DNA from: an uncultured Flavobacteriaceae bacterium
Lineage (GTDB): Bacteria > Bacteroidota > Bacteroidia > Flavobacteriales > Flavobacteriaceae
Direction of reading: 5' to 3'
DNA length: 64,000 bases
Assembly (NCBI GenBank): GCA_947501625.1
Contig: CANMWN010000001.1
Span: 1-64,000, forward strand
The notes beneath the pieces were generated by a model. That model was not told where the DNA came from and did not search any database. It worked only from the letters and a program-made list of their open reading frames with translations. Position numbers and translations under genes: made by a program. Positions 7,224 through 27,680 of this stretch are shown piece after piece; position 1 is the stretch's first letter, and each line of letters opens with the position of its first letter.

Positions 7224-7487
7224 CGACATATATTGTATTATATCAATAAAATAGTTCAATAAATTAATAAATGGGTGTTATTTTATAATATTCGGTATAA
7301 AAAAAACAATAAACAACTAACGCAATACTATAATTGGGATTAAATTGTAATAGCAAATAATTGAATTTCGAGATTAAAAAAATTTGATTATCACAATTTA
7401 AAGTATCCGATTTTATATAATAAACAAAAGTTAATAAATCATTAAAGTTAATAGCGATTTTTTTATAAATAAATAAAACTTTAAAAT
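7224..7487. other. AT-rich divergent intergenic region, no gene
   Basis: About 260 bases of very AT-rich sequence between two divergent promoters. I see no ORF, tRNA or stable hairpin; it probably holds regulatory sites for glutamine synthetase, but none can be named. Confidence 0.4.
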
Positions 7488-7495
7488 TATATTTG
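7488..7495 (+). promoter_or_regulatory. glutamine synthetase promoter -7 element
   Basis: TATATTTG matches the consensus exactly and lies 40 bases before the start codon at 7536. The expected -33 position holds only a T-run. Confidence 0.55.
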
Positions 7496-7535
7496 CGTCA
7501 ATATTTGATTATTAATATACAAACAACACACAAAA

Positions 7536-8543
7536 ATGACTAAATCAAAATTAGAGTATATCTGGCTTGATGGACACAATCCAACACAGAATATGCGTAG
7601 TAAAACTAAAGTTGAAAATGACTTTAGCGGCAAATTAGAAGACTGCCCAATATGGTCTTTTGATGGTAGTTCCACTGAACAAGCTTCTGGAGGATCATCG
7701 GATTGTTTATTGAAACCTGTTGCAATATATCCAGATCCTGTTAGAAAAAATGGATATTTAGTAATGTCTGAAGTATTAAGCGCTGATGGAACACCTCATC
7801 CTTCAAATGCAAGAGCAAGTATTGATGATGATGATAATGATTTTTGGTTTGGATTCGAACAAGAATATTTCTTGATGGATACAAAAACTGATTTACCTTT
7901 AGGATTCCCTCGTGGAGGATTTCCTGGCCCTCAAGGAAAATATTATTGCTCAGTTGGCGGAAGATATACTTGGGGAAGAGATTTTGTAGAAGAGCATGCC
8001 GATTTATGTATTGAAGCTGGATTAAATTTTGAAGGAATAAATCAAGAAGTTGCTCCTGGACAATGGGAATTTCAATTGTTTGCTAAAGGCGCAAAAAAAG
8101 CAGGTGATGAAATTTGGGTTGCTAGATATTTATTAGATAGATTGACAGAGAAATATGGATACTATATTGAATACCATCCAAAACCAGTAAAAGGTGATTG
8201 GAATGGATCTGGAATGCATGCTAATTTCTCTAATACAACATTAAGAACTTGTGGAGACAAAGCAACTTATGAAAAAATATGTGAAGCTTTTAGACCAGTA
8301 ACCAAAGAACATATTGATGTTTATGGTGAATTTAATGACGAACGTTTAACAGGGCTACATGAAACAGCCGCAATTACAGATTTTAGTTATGGAGTTTCGG
8401 ATAGAGGTGCTTCTATAAGAATTCCAATTATTACTGTTGAGAAAGGTTGGAAAGGTTGGCTGGAAGATAGAAGACCTGCTTCTAATGCCGATCCTTATAA
8501 AATTGCAGGAAGAATTATTAAAACTGTAAAGTCAGCATTATAA
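7536..8543 (+). CDS. glnII: Glutamine synthetase, type II
   Basis: Condenses glutamate and ammonia with ATP to form glutamine. The 335-residue protein is the short GSII (eukaryote-like) form, not GSI (about 470) or GSIII (about 700). Visible landmarks: N-terminal beta-grasp EYIWLDGHNPTQNMRSK, WSFDGSSTEQA, the metal-binding FGFEQEYFL, the ATP-site NFEGINQEVAPGQWEFQ, GDWNGSGMHANFS, and SDRGASIRIP near the C-terminus. The long divergent upstream region suggests regulation by nitrogen status; no site can be assigned. Terminated by a bidirectional hairpin. Confidence 0.95.
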   Translation: MTKSKLEYIWLDGHNPTQNMRSKTKVENDFSGKLEDCPIWSFDGSSTEQASGGSSDCLLKPVAIYPDPVRKNGYLVMSEVLSADGTPHPSNARASIDDDDNDFWFGFEQEYFLMDTKTDLPLGFPRGGFPGPQGKYYCSVGGRYTWGRDFVEEHADLCIEAGLNFEGINQEVAPGQWEFQLFAKGAKKAGDEIWVARYLLDRLTEKYGYYIEYHPKPVKGDWNGSGMHANFSNTTLRTCGDKATYEKICEAFRPVTKEHIDVYGEFNDERLTGLHETAAITDFSYGVSDRGASIRIPIITVEKGWKGWLEDRRPASNADPYKIAGRIIKTVKSAL

Positions 8544-8562
8544 ATTAGTTGAATATATAAAA

Positions 8563-8593
8563 TAAAAAAAAGCGTCTAATAGACGCTTTTTTT
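8563..8593. terminator. Bidirectional terminator, glnII and CaCA antiporter
   Basis: Stem AAAAAGCGTCT / AGACGCTTTTT with an AAT loop, flanked by A- and T-runs, between convergent genes. Confidence 0.9.
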
Positions 8594-8600
8594 ATTGTTT

Positions 8601-9542
8601 CTATTGAAATGCCGTATAAATAAATGATATATATAATAGTAATAGAATTAACCCTTTAATTCTACTTAATTTATATCTCTTTGGCAAAAACACCAGTGGA
8701 ATTAATATTGCGGCAACTCCTAACATCCAATAAATATTTGTTAATACTTCAGGCTCGGTGACTCTTATAGGAGTTATTAAAGCAGTAATCCCAATTACAG
8801 ATCCAATATTAAATATATTTGACCCAATTAAATTACCAAGTGAAATCGCCTTTTCACCTTTAAGAGCGGCAATAATTGAGGCTGCTAATTCAGGAACACT
8901 CGTTCCAATTGCAATTACTGTTGCTCCAATAACACCTTCACTTATTCCCATTTTTTGAGCAATATCTTTTGCTCCTTCTACTAACCAATCTGAACCAAAA
9001 TACAAAGCTGAACTACCTATAAGCAACCAAAATAAAATCTTTGGATAACCAACTTTTTCTAAACTTTCATCGACCTCTTCTACTTCAAAGTTCTTTTGTT
9101 TTCTTGCTTTAGTTATCATAAAATATACAAAAACTATTAAGAATAATAATAACAACAATCCTTCATAAAAAGTAATTACATTGTCATTAATAATAAAATA
9201 ATAGAACAATAATGAAATTAGCATCATTGCCGGCCAATTCATTTTATAGAAATCTTTATCTACTATTATTGGAGCAATAATAGCAGTAATTCCAAGTACT
9301 AGAGCAATATTTGCAATATTAGAGCCAATTACATTTCCAAGTGCTAAATCTGGCGATCCATCTAAAGCCGCTTTCAAACTCACTAATAATTCAGGTGCCG
9401 AAGTAGCAAATGAGACAACAGTCATTCCAATTATTAATTTAGAAAGGCTTAATTTAAACGATAATGCAACCGACGATCTAACCAAAAACTCTCCTCCTAT
9501 AACCAGCAGTACAAATCCAACAATTATTAATGCAATACTCAT
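8601..9542 (-). CDS. Calcium/sodium antiporter, CaCA family (YrbG-like)
   Basis: An inner-membrane cation antiporter of 313 residues with about ten membrane segments. The two inverted alpha-repeats are clear: SFATSAPELLVSLKAA...GNVIGSNIANIALVLG in the first half and AIGTSVPELAASIIAAL...GNLIGSNIFNIGSVIG in the second, carrying the ion-coordinating Glu and Asn/Ser residues. A charged cytoplasmic loop (KARKQKNFEVEEVDESLEK) separates the halves. Probably exchanges Ca2+ for Na+ or H+; the exact ion is not determined by sequence. It is transcribed alone. Confidence 0.9.
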   Translation of the reverse strand: MSIALIIVGFVLLVIGGEFLVRSSVALSFKLSLSKLIIGMTVVSFATSAPELLVSLKAALDGSPDLALGNVIGSNIANIALVLGITAIIAPIIVDKDFYKMNWPAMMLISLLFYYFIINDNVITFYEGLLLLLFLIVFVYFMITKARKQKNFEVEEVDESLEKVGYPKILFWLLIGSSALYFGSDWLVEGAKDIAQKMGISEGVIGATVIAIGTSVPELAASIIAALKGEKAISLGNLIGSNIFNIGSVIGITALITPIRVTEPEVLTNIYWMLGVAAILIPLVFLPKRYKLSRIKGLILLLLYISFIYTAFQ

Positions 9543-22515: not shown

Positions 22516-25500
22516 ATGGAACAAGTTCAGCCATATAAACCAAAACATAAAGTAAGAATTGTAACCGCAGCATCGTTATTTGACGGACATGATGCAGCCA
22601 TCAACATCATGCGTAGAATTATTCAATCTACAGGTGTTGAAGTAATACATCTTGGACATGATCGTAGTGTAGAAGAGGTTGTAAACACAGCTATTCAAGA
22701 AGATGCAAATGCTATTGCAATGACATCTTATCAAGGCGGTCATAATGAGTACTTCAAGTATATGTATGACTTATTGAAAGAAAAAGGGGCTGGACATATT
22801 AAAATTTTTGGTGGAGGCGGTGGAGTTATACTTCCTGAAGAAATTAAAGATTTAATGGACTATGGAATAACTCGTATCTATTCTCCAGATGATGGACGTG
22901 AGCTTGGGCTTCAAGGAATGATTAATGATTTGGTTCAACAATCAGATTTTGCAATAGGTGATACATTAAATGATGAAATAGACACCTTAACTGATAAAAA
23001 TCCTAAATCAATTGCTAGAATTATTTCATCTGCCGAAAACTTTCCTGATGTTGCGAAAGAGACTTTAAAAACCATTCACAAAAAAAATAAAAACTCTAAA
23101 ACTCCTGTTTTAGGAATTACAGGAACAGGAGGAGCTGGGAAATCTTCATTGGTCGATGAATTAGTAAGGCGTTTTTTAATTGATTTTCCAGAAAAAACTG
23201 TTGGATTGGTTTCTGTTGATCCATCAAAAAGAAAAACTGGAGGTGCATTATTGGGAGATAGAATTCGAATGAACGCCATCAATTCTCCAAGAGTTTACAT
23301 GCGAAGTTTGGCAACACGTCAATCCAATTTAGCATTGTCTAAATATGTGAATGAAGCCGTTGAAGTATTGAAGGCTGCAGAATACGACTTGATTATTTTA
23401 GAAACTTCTGGAATTGGACAATCAGATACTGAAATTATTGAACATAGCGATGTTTCTTTATATGTAATGACTCCTGAATTTGGTGCTGCAACACAATTGG
23501 AGAAAATTGACATGCTTGATTTTGCTGATTTAGTTGCCATTAACAAATTTGATAAGAGGGGCTCTTTAGATGCACTTAGAGATGTAAAAAAACAGTATAT
23601 GCGTAACAATAATCTTTGGGATATTCCTCAAGATGAGTTACCTGTTTTTGGCACTATTGCTTCACAATTCAACGATCCTGGGATGAACACGCTCTATAAA
23701 GCGATTATGGATAAATTGGTTGAAAAAGCAGCTTCAGAATTAAAATCTACATTTGAAATTTCACAAGAAATGAGTGAAAAGATATTTGTAATCCCTCCAA
23801 ATAGAACACGTTATTTATCTGAAATAACCGAAAATAATCGCGCATACGATAAAAGTGGAATTGCTCAAGTAAAAGTTGCTCAAAAATTATACGGAATCTA
23901 TAAAACTTTAGAATCTGTATCAGGAAAAACTCCAGAATTAGATAAATCTGGAATTGAATTAGATTCTGTTTCGTCAAAAGATAATGAAGATTTCATCAAA
24001 TTATTAATTGCAGAATTTGACAGAGTAAAACTCGACTTAAACCCTTATAATTGGGAAATAATTACTGGTTGGGATGAAAAAGTAAATAAATACAAAAACC
24101 CAATTTATTCATTCAAAGTAAGAGATAAAGAAATAAAAATAGAAACGCATACCGAGTCATTATCTCACTTACAAATTCCTAAAGTTGCTTTACCAAAATA
24201 CGAGGCTTGGGGAGATATATTAAAATGGTGTTTGCAAGAAAATGTTCCTGGAGAATTCCCTTACACTTCTGGTTTGTATCCTTTTAAAAGAACTGGTGAA
24301 GATCCAGCAAGAATGTTTGCAGGAGAAGGAGGTCCAGAACGAACAAACAGACGTTTTCACTATGTGAGTATGGGATTACCTGCAAAGCGTTTATCAACAG
24401 CATTTGATAGTGTAACTCTTTATGGAAACGATCCGGATCATCGTCCAGATATATATGGTAAAATTGGAAATGCAGGAGTTTCTATCTGTTGTTTAGACGA
24501 TGCAAAGAAATTGTATTCTGGATTTGATTTAGCCAATGTAATGACATCGGTAAGTATGACCATAAATGGCCCTGCCCCTATGTTGTTAGGCTTCTTTATG
24601 AATGCTGCCATTGATCAACAGTGTGAAATTTATATCAAAGAAAATGGTTTAGAAAAAAACGTTGAAGCCAAGATTGCCAAAATTTATAAAGGAACAAAAC
24701 GTCCAACATACAATGGCGAATTACCTGAAGGAAATGATGGTTTGGGCTTGATGTTACTTGGAGTTACTGGTGACCAAGTTTTACCAAATGATGTATACCA
24801 AGATATAAAAACCAAGACGATTGCACAAGTTCGCGGAACTGTTCAAGCAGATATATTAAAAGAAGACCAAGCACAAAATACTTGTATTTTCTCAACTGAA
24901 TTTGCATTGCGTTTAATGGGTGATGTTCAAGAATATTTTATTGAAAATAATGTCCGTAATTTCTATTCAGTTTCTATTTCAGGTTACCATATTGCCGAAG
25001 CAGGTGCCAATCCAATTTCACAGTTAGCATTTACACTTGCCAATGGATTTACATATGTAGAATATTATCTTTCAAGAGGAATGGATATCAACAAATTTGG
25101 TCCAAATTTATCTTTCTTTTTCTCCAACGGAATTGATCCAGAATATGCTGTAATTGGTCGTGTAGCTCGTAAGATTTGGTCAAAAGCCATGAAGCATAAA
25201 TACGGAGCAAATCCTAGAGCCCAAATGTTGAAATATCACATTCAAACTTCGGGACGTAGTTTACACGCTCAAGAAATTGATTTTAATGATATCAGAACTA
25301 CTTTACAAGCATTATATGCCATTTATGATAATTGTAATTCGCTGCACACCAATGCTTATGACGAAGCAATTACCACTCCTACTGAAGAATCAGTTAGAAG
25401 AGCCATGGCAATTCAGTTGATTATCAATAAGGAATTAGGGTTGAATAAAAATGAGAATCCAATTCAAGGGTCGTTTATTATCGAAGAGTTGACGGATTTG

Positions 25501-25926
25501 GTTGAAGAAGCAGTATTACAAGAATTTGACAGAATTACAGAACGCGGAGGTGTTTTAGGAGCTATGGAAACAATGTACCAACGTTCAAAAATACAAGAAG
25601 AAAGTTTGTATTATGAAACGTTGAAACACAATGGTGATTTCCCAATTATTGGTGTCAATACTTTCTTGAGTAGCAAGGGATCTCCTACGGTTATTCCTGC
25701 AGAAGTAATTCGTGCAACTGAAGAAGAAAAGCAATTCCAAATTACTACGCTGGAAAACCTTCATAAACATAATGACACTGAAAAATCACTAAAAGAATTA
25801 CAACACAAAGCCATTAACAATGAGAATATCTTTGAAGCCTTGATGGATGTATGTAAAGTTTGTTCTTTGGGTCAAATTACCAATGCATTATTTGAAGTAG
25901 GAGGACAATATAGGAGGAATATGTAG
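22516..25926 (+). CDS. icmF: Fused isobutyryl-CoA mutase (B12-dependent, with G-protein chaperone)
   Basis: 1136 residues. Order: B12-binding domain (about 10-150; [13 protein letters not shown] supplies the cobalt-ligand His, GGGGG the base-off pocket), MeaB-like GTPase (P-loop [12 protein letters not shown] at 200-211, NKFDKRG), then the mutase TIM barrel (about 560-1100). The barrel's substrate residues read Phe (F590, [13 protein letters not shown]) and Gln (Q787, QAQNTCIF) rather than the Tyr and Arg of methylmalonyl-CoA mutase, pointing to isobutyryl/n-butyryl-CoA. The fused GTPase protects cofactor loading. Databases often label these simply methylmalonyl-CoA mutase. Confidence 0.9.
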
Positions 25927-25944: not shown

Positions 25945-26463
25945 ATGAAACAACTTTCAATTTTACTTTTATTACTTATCTCAATAAGTTGTATTGATAA
26001 AAAAGAGAAAGTAATAGAAAAAACCAACTTAAAGAGTATAGCACGAGAAATTATCACTTCATCAAAAAACTGTGCGCTAATCACTGTTGACTCATTAGGA
26101 GTTGCGCATGCAAGGGCGATGGATCCTTTCTCTCCTGATGAAAAATTTAATATTTGGATGGCAACTAAACCAAATAGTAATAAAGTATGGCAGATAGCAA
26201 AAAATCCAAATGTAACTTTATATTATTTTGACAAAGAGAATGCTAGTTATGTAACACTTCAAGGAAAAGCAAGCCTGATAAATTCAAACACTATAAAAGA
26301 AAAAATGTGGAAAAAAGAGTGGGAAAATTTCTACAAAAACAGAACTACTGATTATCAGTTAATTTTATTTGCTCCTAAAAAAATGAATATCATTAGTGAA
26401 AAATATAACATCTTGGGAGATTCAATTACTTGGAAAACTCCTGAGGTTTTATTCAAAAAATAA
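25945..26463 (+). CDS. Exported lipoprotein with pyridoxamine-phosphate-oxidase-like fold
   Basis: 172 residues with lipobox LLISISC (Cys16). The mature part resembles the general-stress-protein-26 branch of the split-barrel flavin-binding family: CALITVDSLGVAHARAMDPF, IWMATKPNSNKVWQIAKNPNVTLYYFD and YVTLQGKASLI. Such proteins are usually cytoplasmic FMN or F420 binders; the lipid anchor puts this one outside the inner membrane. It follows icmF by 18 bases and may be cotranscribed. Confidence 0.75.
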   Translation: MKQLSILLLLLISISCIDKKEKVIEKTNLKSIAREIITSSKNCALITVDSLGVAHARAMDPFSPDEKFNIWMATKPNSNKVWQIAKNPNVTLYYFDKENASYVTLQGKASLINSNTIKEKMWKKEWENFYKNRTTDYQLILFAPKKMNIISEKYNILGDSITWKTPEVLFKK

Positions 26464-26470
26464 ATCATTT

Positions 26471-26500
26471 TGCATCTTTTTTAAAGTTAATAAGTCTATT
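26471..26500 (+). promoter_or_regulatory. Putative ECF-sigma promoter, copy 1
   Basis: TGCATCTTTTTT (26471-26482), 11 bases, GTCTATT (26494-26500). The same two blocks with the same 11-base spacing recur at 26860-26889. They do not match the housekeeping TAnnTTTG pattern. The ATG of the DUF3703 gene follows 16 bases later. Confidence 0.65.
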
Positions 26501-26516
26501 GGATAAACTAAATCCA

Positions 26517-26852
26517 ATGAAGTTAAAAAAAGAACGAAAAATAGCATTTTACGATCAATTAGAAAAAGGAAAAAGACTTTTACATTCTAATAATAATTTA
26601 GCATTTTATCACTTTGAGAATGCACATATTTTAGGTCAATCTCATTTATTGAGACACACTTTATCACATTATTGGTTATTAGTTTGGGGAATCAAAACAA
26701 AAAGCATCAAGGAAATAATTGGGCAATTTTTTAGAATTATTGCTTCACTCCTATTCACACTTTTTTGGGTTCCAAAAGGAAATACTGGAGGCACAAACAT
26801 TTCAGCAATCAAAATAATACCGATAAGAAAAGAATTACAAAAATATTTTTAA
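26517..26852 (+). CDS. DUF3703 protein
   Basis: With the ATG at 26517 the product has 111 residues; a TTG at 26499 lies inside the promoter-like block and is rejected. DUF3703 features are seen: a helical N-terminus with FYHFENAHILGQSHLLRHTLSHYWLLVWG (several His that could bind metal), a membrane-like segment (IIASLLFTLFWVPKGNTGG) and a short tail. Function unknown. It shares a promoter-type element with the following cysteine-rich peptide gene, which suggests joint regulation. Confidence 0.75.
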   Translation: MKLKKERKIAFYDQLEKGKRLLHSNNNLAFYHFENAHILGQSHLLRHTLSHYWLLVWGIKTKSIKEIIGQFFRIIASLLFTLFWVPKGNTGGTNISAIKIIPIRKELQKYF

Positions 26853-26859
26853 ACTTAAA

Positions 26860-26889
26860 TGCATCTTTTTTGTAATTTGTTGGTCTATT
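26860..26889 (+). promoter_or_regulatory. Putative ECF-sigma promoter, copy 2
   Basis: TGCATCTTTTTT (26860-26871), 11 bases, GTCTATT (26883-26889), identical in both blocks and in spacing to copy 1. The metallothionein-like ORF starts 25 bases downstream. Confidence 0.65.
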
Positions 26890-26913
26890 AAGTGAACATT
26901 AATAATAATCATT

Positions 26914-27015
26914 ATGAAAAATACTAATTGTACTTGTAACTGCGAAAGTTGTAAAGGCGGAAATTGCACTAGTTGTACCTGTGAAAATTGCACGTGTTCT
27001 AGTTGTAATTGCTAA
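26914..27015 (+). CDS. Metallothionein-like cysteine-rich peptide, 33 residues
   Basis: ATG at 26914 encodes a 33-residue peptide (MKNTNCTCNCESCKGGNC..., ending CSSCNC) with 11 cysteines arranged as CxC and CxxC pairs and no aromatic residues. This is the composition of a metallothionein: tight binding of soft metals through thiolate clusters, in the cytoplasm. I see no exact match to a named family. It is flanked by DUF3703 and a SigZ-type sigma gene. Although very short, the ORF is supported by the conserved upstream element and by its extreme, non-random composition. Confidence 0.8.
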   Translation: MKNTNCTCNCESCKGGNCTSCTCENCTCSSCNC

Positions 27016-27022
27016 ATAAATT

Positions 27023-27129
27023 GTCATTCTGAACGGAGTGAAGAATCTCTCTTCTAATTTAGATTCTTCGTTTCACTCAGAATGACATTAACTTTTTCTC
27101 GATACGATTTTTTAATCACTCGAAATGAC
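27023..27129. repeat. Intergenic palindromic repeat (copy 1) with a second partial unit
   Basis: Imperfect 26-bp inverted repeat: GTCATTCTGA...GAATCT (27023-27048) and its complement at 27061-27086. A partial relative follows (27096-27129, TTCTCGATACG...CACTCGAAATGAC). The same end sequence GTCA(T/C)TC recurs at four other intergenic sites in the window. There is no strong T-run after it, so transcription could continue into the sigma gene. Confidence 0.75.
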
Positions 27130-27140
27130 AAAAAATAAAA

Positions 27141-27680
27141 ATGACTACTAATCAAGTTTGGCAAAAATATTCAGAAGATATAAAACGGTTTATCGTCAGC
27201 AAAGTAAAAAATTCTTCTATAGCTGATGATATTTTACAGGATAGTTTTATCAAAATTCATACGAAACTTCACACTTTAAAGGATATAACAAAGTTAAAAC
27301 CTTGGATTTTTACCATTGTTAGAAATTCTATTTTAGATTATTGGAAATCTACAAATCAAACATTTGAAATTGCCAATTTTGAATCCGAAGTAGAAATTAC
27401 TGAAAATGTACATACTGAAAAAGATTGTTTGCGTGGAATCCTACAAAATCTTCCTAAAAAATATCGAGATCCATTATTTTTATCAGACATTAAAGGGATG
27501 AAACAACTAGATGTGGCCAAGCAGTTAAAACAAACGCTACCAACTACTAAATCACAAATTCAACGTGCTCGTAAATTGATTGCACAAGGATTTATGGATT
27601 GTTGTGGATTTATAATGAATGAACAAGGAAATCTTGTGGGAGAAATTCAAGAAAAAGAAGATTGTAAAATCTGTAATTAA
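27141..27680 (+). CDS. SigZ-type ECF RNA polymerase sigma factor with cysteine tail
   Basis: 179 residues. Region 2 (about 10-75; VWQKYSEDIKRFIVSKV, DDILQDSFIKIHT, KPWIFTIVRNSILDYW) and region 4 (about 100-150; LPKKYRDPLFLSDIKGMKQLDVAKQL, TTKSQIQRARK) are complete. The C-terminal tail carries C154-C155 and C175-x-x-C178, the four-Cys tail typical of the SigZ group and suited to bind a metal or form disulphides. No anti-sigma gene is adjacent. It follows the metallothionein-like gene by 125 bases, and its last bases overlap the convergent VOC gene. Confidence 0.85.
   Translation: MTTNQVWQKYSEDIKRFIVSKVKNSSIADDILQDSFIKIHTKLHTLKDITKLKPWIFTIVRNSILDYWKSTNQTFEIANFESEVEITENVHTEKDCLRGILQNLPKKYRDPLFLSDIKGMKQLDVAKQLKQTLPTTKSQIQRARKLIAQGFMDCCGFIMNEQGNLVGEIQEKEDCKICN

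Follow-up and report, generated by a model that had tools for sequence, protein, structure and literature searches.

The window analysed here, a 64,000-nt stretch of DNA, carries on its plus strand a compact cassette that ends in the gene of an ECF sigma factor. Two copies of a 30-base candidate promoter of ECF type, TGCATCTTTTTT-N11-GTCTATT, lie at positions 26471–26500 and 26860–26889, and both are exact, just as a preliminary description of this DNA had reported. The first copy stands upstream of a gene for a 111-aa DUF3703 protein (26517–26852, with its ATG at 26517), identified by PF12487 (E 3.2e-32; 111.1 bits against a gathering cut-off of 22.3) and a candidate heavy-metal accessory. 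The second precedes a unit that consists of a 33-aa metallothionein-like peptide with 11 Cys (26914–27015; 29 intact orthologues), a hairpin proposed to act as attenuator or terminator (27022–27087) and a SigZ-type ECF sigma factor of 179 aa (27141–27680) with the residue set H91, C96, C154, C155, C175 and C178. DUF3703 is preceded by a gene for a PNPOx-like protein with a lipoprotein-like start (25945–26463), for which phmmer found no match in 33 other neighbourhoods. Farther upstream, at 22516–25926, lies a large cobalamin-dependent mutase-like gene (icmF-type as judged by eye); a mutase-like gene is also found on the same strand, at most five genes upstream of the cassette, in 19 of the 29 loci of type A, the class described below to which the window belongs.

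Matches to Sigma70_r2 (44 bits, cut-off 24) and Sigma70_r4_2 (40.1 bits, cut-off 25.7) place the last protein of the cassette among the ECF sigma factors. Its best model is SigZ (PRK09637/TIGR02959): PRK09637 aligns near full length, over residues 1–178 (E 9.3e-48), with scores below the curated equivalog cut-offs of both PRK09637 (162.6 versus 212 bits) and TIGR02959 (147 versus 168.65 bits). The SigZ model has 21 matches in the genome, among which the window sigma alone exceeds 75 bits (146.6). The four C-terminal cysteines claimed for it earlier are present (C154, C155, C175 and C178), with C96 in addition. For comparison we used 249 genomes of the same family; a sigma search of these yielded 59 match rows, the 30 best of which define the close-sigma genomes and loci. 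H91, C96, C154, C155, C175 and C178 are invariant among 28 of these sequences, with L031 (genome G188) and L032 (G047) left out, where the sigma frames are interrupted or truncated, possibly by assembly error or decay. Across a second set of 50 sigmas, C96, C154, C155 and C175 are again invariant, and H91 and C178 are retained in at least 90%. Structure prediction for the window sigma gave a pLDDT of 81.2 and a pTM of 0.45.

The earlier observation that no anti-sigma gene adjoins the sigma gene holds for the window, where the next gene encodes a glyoxalase/VOC-like protein on the other strand, and extends to its relatives. In 18 of 29 loci the gene directly downstream runs in the opposite direction to the sigma gene; 10 of the 11 same-strand next genes were scanned and gave no Pfam match to an anti-sigma family, their products being antitoxin-like, a helicase, NUDIX, a methyltransferase or weak sigma matches, with two lacking any match. 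A conserved anti-sigma gene directly downstream of the sigma gene is lacking. At one locus, a short second sigma-like ORF lies downstream of the cassette sigma (L087:7234–7533, plus strand; Sigma70_r2 weak, below cut-off).

An intact ORF of 32–34 aa with exactly 11 Cys is present in 29 of the 30 best orthologous loci; in the thirtieth, L031, the peptide frame is damaged and so is that of the sigma. Neither the start Met nor any of the 11 Cys varies among the 29 aligned peptides, while TGT and TGC both occur at each of the 11 positions (231 and 88 codons), the pattern of a translated gene. A second collection of named loci, the best 80 of 518 relatives (mainly Polaribacter, Tenacibaculum and Winogradskyella), has a peptide with 10–12 Cys no more than 700 nt upstream of the sigma gene in 79 cases; at L124 the peptide lies farther upstream, with a gene inserted between the two. 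That inserted gene (L124:5191–6001) looks membrane methyltransferase-like by eye. Cys-dense mini-ORFs number 30 in 450 kb from 33 neighbourhoods, every one adjoining the sigma, and none occurs at the 19 loci of other ECF sigmas of the window genome. Searches of Pfam and NCBIfam returned nothing at E 0.01 for the window peptide and nine peptides of other types, curated metallothionein models included, and the PDB yielded just three defensin chains for the window peptide (E 1.9–2.5). Bacterial metallothioneins are few and mainly known under repressor control; SmtA, MymT and PmtA are small, consist of Cys to one third and contain CxC/CxxC runs. The window peptide resembles them in composition, being small, Cys-dense, rich in such runs and devoid of aromatic residues (a Tyr occurs close to the start in some orthologues), and differs in packing 11 Cys into 33 aa and in having no family match. 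From this composition we infer a metallothionein-like chelator. Its proposed control by a linked sigma factor differs from that of MymT, which is controlled by the repressor RicR (PMC10141476).

Between peptide and sigma, a strong secondary structure is a constant feature. In the window the gap folds at −33.1 kcal/mol (z −4.6), and all 28 loci that combine an intact peptide with a gap of at least 40 nt give z-scores from −3.1 to −8.0 (median −4.55, with 100 dinucleotide shuffles per gap); L032, with a gap of just 3 nt, is a separate case. Since the gap sequences differ between genomes, it is the structure that is conserved. The window hairpin itself represents one copy of a palindromic repeat that is dispersed in the genome (five sites at up to two mismatches, reversed control 0). 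A search of the 130 nt preceding the sigma gene detected no element at type A loci, from which we infer that the sigma is supplied by read-through from the peptide transcript.

How specific is the element? Within the window, the two copies are the sole matches at up to three mismatches (shuffle mean 0.16). The 2.66-Mb genome holds seven sites of TGCATCTTTTTT-N11-GTCTATT at this tolerance (two exact, five with three mismatches; reversed control 6), of which only the two window sites remain within two mismatches; a relaxed form, TGCATCTTTTT-N12-GTCTAWT, adds one two-mismatch site. Across the 249 genomes, the full element, with a spacer of 10–12 permitted, occurs 11 times in 10 genomes, always with a spacer of 11 (reversed control 0). 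The relaxed form has 15 exact sites in 14 genomes: 14 lie 213–281 nt upstream of an orthologous sigma gene, and the remaining one precedes DUF3703 of the window. Exact sites are present in 14 of 30 close-sigma genomes and in 0 of 219 others (Fisher p 5e-15, kinship ignored). Allowing one mismatch gives 34 more sites, namely 14 at cassettes, one before a CDF exporter and 19 elsewhere, against 10 for the reversed control; by these counts specificity lies with the exact form, and one-mismatch sites taken alone lack it. At two mismatches, most added sites resemble background. Chance is ruled out for the exact form, as is a plain repeat or duplication: flanks and spacer differ, and the two blocks are retained from genus to genus, as is the interval between them. 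A longer strict pattern, too narrow as a query, matched in two of 395 genomes of the phylum, both times at a SigZ cassette.

A genome-scale search, which had been suggested as the way to check the motif, placed the element at the peptide–sigma pair in 30 of 30 family loci, where its two blocks are conserved and always equally far apart, and the sequence inside them varies. When at least 10 of the 11 letters of the first block are required, together with GTCT at the standard distance, it also precedes the pair in 77 of the best 80 of the 518 relatives, the exceptions being L161, L162 and L180. A regex scan of these 80 loci (967,510 bases) found 89 sites: 74 before the peptide and one more in the peptide's longer leader (L193), nine before DUF3703 and one before a frame-broken DUF3703 (L140), and four unexplained, all on the other strand. 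Of 442 control ORFs, just three have an element in the upstream stretch examined: one encodes DUF3703, one a CDF exporter, and the third, next to the gene of a SigZ-type sigma, a TonB receptor. The notion of a self-contained regulon is thus nearly borne out: a cassette site with at most one mismatch exists in 27 of the 30 sigma-bearing genomes and one with two mismatches in the other three, the sole further sites at up to one mismatch being DUF3703 in the window genome and the CDF exporter in G083. The two-part element had also been called a novel promoter. The element is real, but as a candidate promoter it is not of a categorically new type, because its −35-like TGCATC and −10-like (C)GTCT, 17 nt apart, are ECF-like. 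The GTC at the −10 position is, by its sequence, ECF-like, and in a flavobacterium a CGT box at −10 is the published hallmark of what is probably a class of ECF promoters (PMC9723704).

Beyond the close orthologues, 95 distinct sigma sites were assembled from all match rows, and a Cys-dense mini-ORF lies near 56 of them, upstream in 51 and downstream in five. Type A combines the 11-Cys peptide with a CC...CxxC sigma tail and an H-x4-C linker; type B has a 14-Cys peptide of 37–41 aa, mostly together with CC in the sigma linker; other peptides contain 8 to 14 Cys. An element regex is satisfied upstream of 52 of the 56 peptide-bearing loci. Two of the misses (L023, L024) do have the element, the choice of start being at fault, and in the other two (L240, L099) AGTATC replaces TGTATC. 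The −35 hexamer of 30 scored type A loci is TGCATC in 27, TGCGTC in two and TGAATC in one, that of type B is TGTATC in 12 of 12, and the spacing is 17 in all 42: the element variant co-varies with the sigma clade. Where the peptide lies downstream, peptide and sigma both have an element, and in five of five cases the two copies of a locus agree in hexamer and in spacing (16 nt in four, 17 in one). On a sigma tree (94 rows, tail omitted, quick method), the peptide classes need 8 changes compared with 45.9 for shuffled labels, a test that reveals clustering, not cause. Sigma tail and peptide are associated (Fisher p 4e-9, and p 3e-5 in the 62 distant rows only, both with kinship ignored; a kinship-aware pair test comprised just four pairs), and of 71 sigmas that have CC and four or more tail Cys, 17 stand without a nearby peptide. 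No peptide was found near 39 of the 95 sigmas, one of them the damaged L031. In four of these 39 loci (L216, L255, L261 and L262) the element precedes the sigma itself, which suggests autoregulation with the target elsewhere.

DUF3703 is an optional member of the cassette, since it was not found in 28 other close-family neighbourhoods of 11.7–14 kb each. It had been described as a His-rich membrane protein; with just six His in 111 aa, four of them invariant (17 sequences), it is not notably rich in His, and the membrane location stands as a conjecture. Among the best 80 of the 518 relatives, 19 have a tblastn match to it. The preliminary description had staked its proposal on the motif not being absent upstream of orthologous genes, and the element is indeed present before the peptide–sigma pairs and before 13 of these 19 DUF3703 hits, the latter count requiring 9 or more of the 11 letters, with GTCT at the standard distance, a threshold chosen after seeing the data. 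Of the exceptions, L134 has an element with one extra spacer base and L136 scores 8; no element was found before DUF3703 at L127, L133, L131 (a fragment) and L144 (42% identical and elsewhere in the locus). Homologues occur in 85 annotated plasmid records. Seven contexts were viewed, among the matches listed (15 of the 85 records), and in five of them annotated cation or heavy-metal exporter genes lie within 2 kb of DUF3703, directly adjoining it in three (Marinobacter, Adhaeribacter and Alteromonas). CadR is present in two of these five, and on a Hymenobacter plasmid a CDF gene is 3.3 kb away; the Vibrio gangliei plasmid context is an integron, with no metal genes near DUF3703. The AlphaFold model is modest (pLDDT 69.8), and its best PDB match, to a TPR domain at E 0.73, is not significant; the structure thus does not point to a function. 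By its contexts, DUF3703 is a probable heavy-metal accessory protein. A further candidate member is the CDF exporter of G083, a zinc-type cation exporter, which has a His-rich start (PF01545 166.2 bits; NCBIfam CDF superfamily above cut-off; best equivalog ZitB, below its cut-off) and directly follows the only other one-mismatch site. One-mismatch sites being noisy, this one is supportive only.

The Cys layout of the sigma factor is reminiscent of CorE and CorE2 of Myxococcus xanthus (formerly ECF44, now ECF238), whose cysteines are needed for metal control (PMC8999054, PMC9023288), the second Cys of the CC pair setting Cd/Zn specificity in CorE2 (PMC9023288). The idea that the window sigma may sense metal or redox through its own tail thereby gains a precedent, by analogy. 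CorE and CorE2 share with it the lack of an anti-sigma and a C-terminal Cys set combined with a Cys motif between regions 2 and 4 (PMC8999054, PMC9023288, PMC10141476); the tail opens with a CC pair as in CorE2, and a CorE-like Cys-rich C-terminal domain is present throughout the 28 sequences. However, the tail reads C-C-x19-C-x2-C in the window sigma, compared with C-C-x3-C-x2-C-x-C in CorE2 and C-x4-C-x2-C-x-C in CorE (PMC9023288), and the CxC linker motif of CorE is absent, with H-x4-C in type A and CC in most type B sigmas. Because of this linker and tail spacing, we regard the window sigma as one that would work like CorE, without classing it as CorE. The named CorE targets, a multicopper oxidase and a copper ATPase, are also unlike the peptide cassette seen here. 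For ECF287 and ECF288, the abundance of Cys in C-terminal extensions has been taken to suggest CorE-like regulation (PMC8999054); their likeness to the window sigma, compared by description only, is the Cys-rich C-terminus. OrbS of Burkholderia cenocepacia likewise carries an on-board C-terminal Cys metal sensor, but Fe(II) inhibits OrbS, the genes concerned are siderophore genes and the Cys spacing is another (PMC9023288).

What, then, might this cassette do? Given the CorE/CorE2-like Cys layout and the ECF-like GTC at −10, we propose a metal-activated sigma factor with a peptide chelator as its main product. In these marine bacteria, and in the many related genomes in which the cassette recurs, the sigma appears to sense a toxic metal via its own Cys tail. 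It would be inactive or weakly active until metal binds at a candidate site formed by H91 and C96, just before region 4, together with the C-terminal C154-C155 and C175-x2-C178. The metal is most likely Zn(II) or Cd(II), a guess that leans on the CC pair, the CDF exporter and the DUF3703 contexts. Active sigma would then direct RNA polymerase to TGCATCTTTTT-N12-GTCTATT and yield a short, strongly expressed mRNA for the 11-Cys chelator, most transcripts ending at the hairpin and read-through supplying more sigma, while the second element copy would drive DUF3703. As the peptide takes up metal, the sigma would lose its ligand and the response would shut off. The sequences show the anatomy of the cassette, its conservation and the way the element follows the sigma clade; recognition of the element by the window sigma, the metal as ligand and its identity, the peptide as chelator, the read-through into sigma and the shut-off by chelation are what we propose beyond that. 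To the whole—a metal-responsive autoregulatory cassette, in which a self-sensing ECF sigma switches on a metallothionein-like buffer and metal accessories and, via read-through, its own gene—we assign a probability of roughly 0.7.

The same sigma–promoter circuit could instead respond to thiol oxidation or electrophiles through disulfides in the tail, with the peptide serving to buffer redox state or to store zinc. Redox sensing is the task of many Cys-based regulators, the CC and CxxC pairs are able to form disulfides, and the sequence fits both readings. A metal signal is nevertheless favoured by the other candidate regulon members, which are of metal type (the CDF exporter with its one-mismatch site; DUF3703 with cation exporters and CadR), by the invariant His alongside the Cys of the sigma, and by the precedents with this layout, CorE/CorE2 and OrbS, which respond to metals. 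A redox signal is, in our view, rather unlikely.

Two other alternatives would reassign the role of one component. Two blocks at −35/−10 distance, a GTC at −10, a variable spacer and variants that follow the sigma clade are hard to reconcile with the element being the operator of some different regulator that responds to metal and the sigma being carried along in the operon. Such a regulator might be sought in an Lrp/AsnC-like gene (recognised by reading its start) that 17 of 29 loci have within five genes of the sigma and in the same orientation, and the type A sigma indeed has no element directly before it. Yet the position of that gene is not fixed: its distance varies and it is absent nearby in 12 of 29 loci. 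In the rearranged loci, moreover, sigma and peptide share the element with equal spacing (five of five), which leaves the operator explanation very unlikely. Could the Cys-rich peptide, finally, be a mini anti-sigma that holds the sigma via shared metal or disulfide contacts and releases it under stress? Peptide type and sigma tail or linker type change together across clades, and no anti-sigma domain was found directly downstream (10 genes scanned). Sigma and anti-sigma normally form a tight gene pair, whereas here a hairpin separates peptide and sigma, and five loci have a downstream peptide under its own element. With 11 Cys in 33 residues being the composition of a chelator, we consider an anti-sigma role most improbable.

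Under the metal-responsive reading, a tiny Cys peptide seems hard-wired to a sigma factor with an apparent sensor of its own; the circuit would comprise three or four genes and have a promoter to itself. For the Bacteroidota, this offers a clean test case of one sigma and one element; the cassette also suggests what DUF3703, a name that does not occur in the literature searched, may do, and makes the sigma a handle for finding more mini-proteins short enough to be missed by gene finders. No report of the cassette, of its peptides or of such a sigma–peptide pairing appeared among the matches listed from that literature (titles and abstract openings, outside subscription papers). The new part is several metallothionein-like types without family models. 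More tentatively, and with odds somewhat short of even, the SigZ-type sigmas of Bacteroidota may form the core of widespread one-protein metal homeostats, each clade having a matched metallothionein-like mini-protein (8 to 14 Cys), promoter dialect and linker/tail Cys set, and metal exchange between sensor and buffer making the buffer switch off its own transcription. If true, the known bacterial metallothioneins would gain several families that so far lack annotation, discovered via their sigma. At L098, a TonB-dependent receptor gene (7277–9448, minus strand) with a type B element (TGTATC...GTCT) adjoins a type B SigZ-type sigma without peptide, a possible swap of the target gene.
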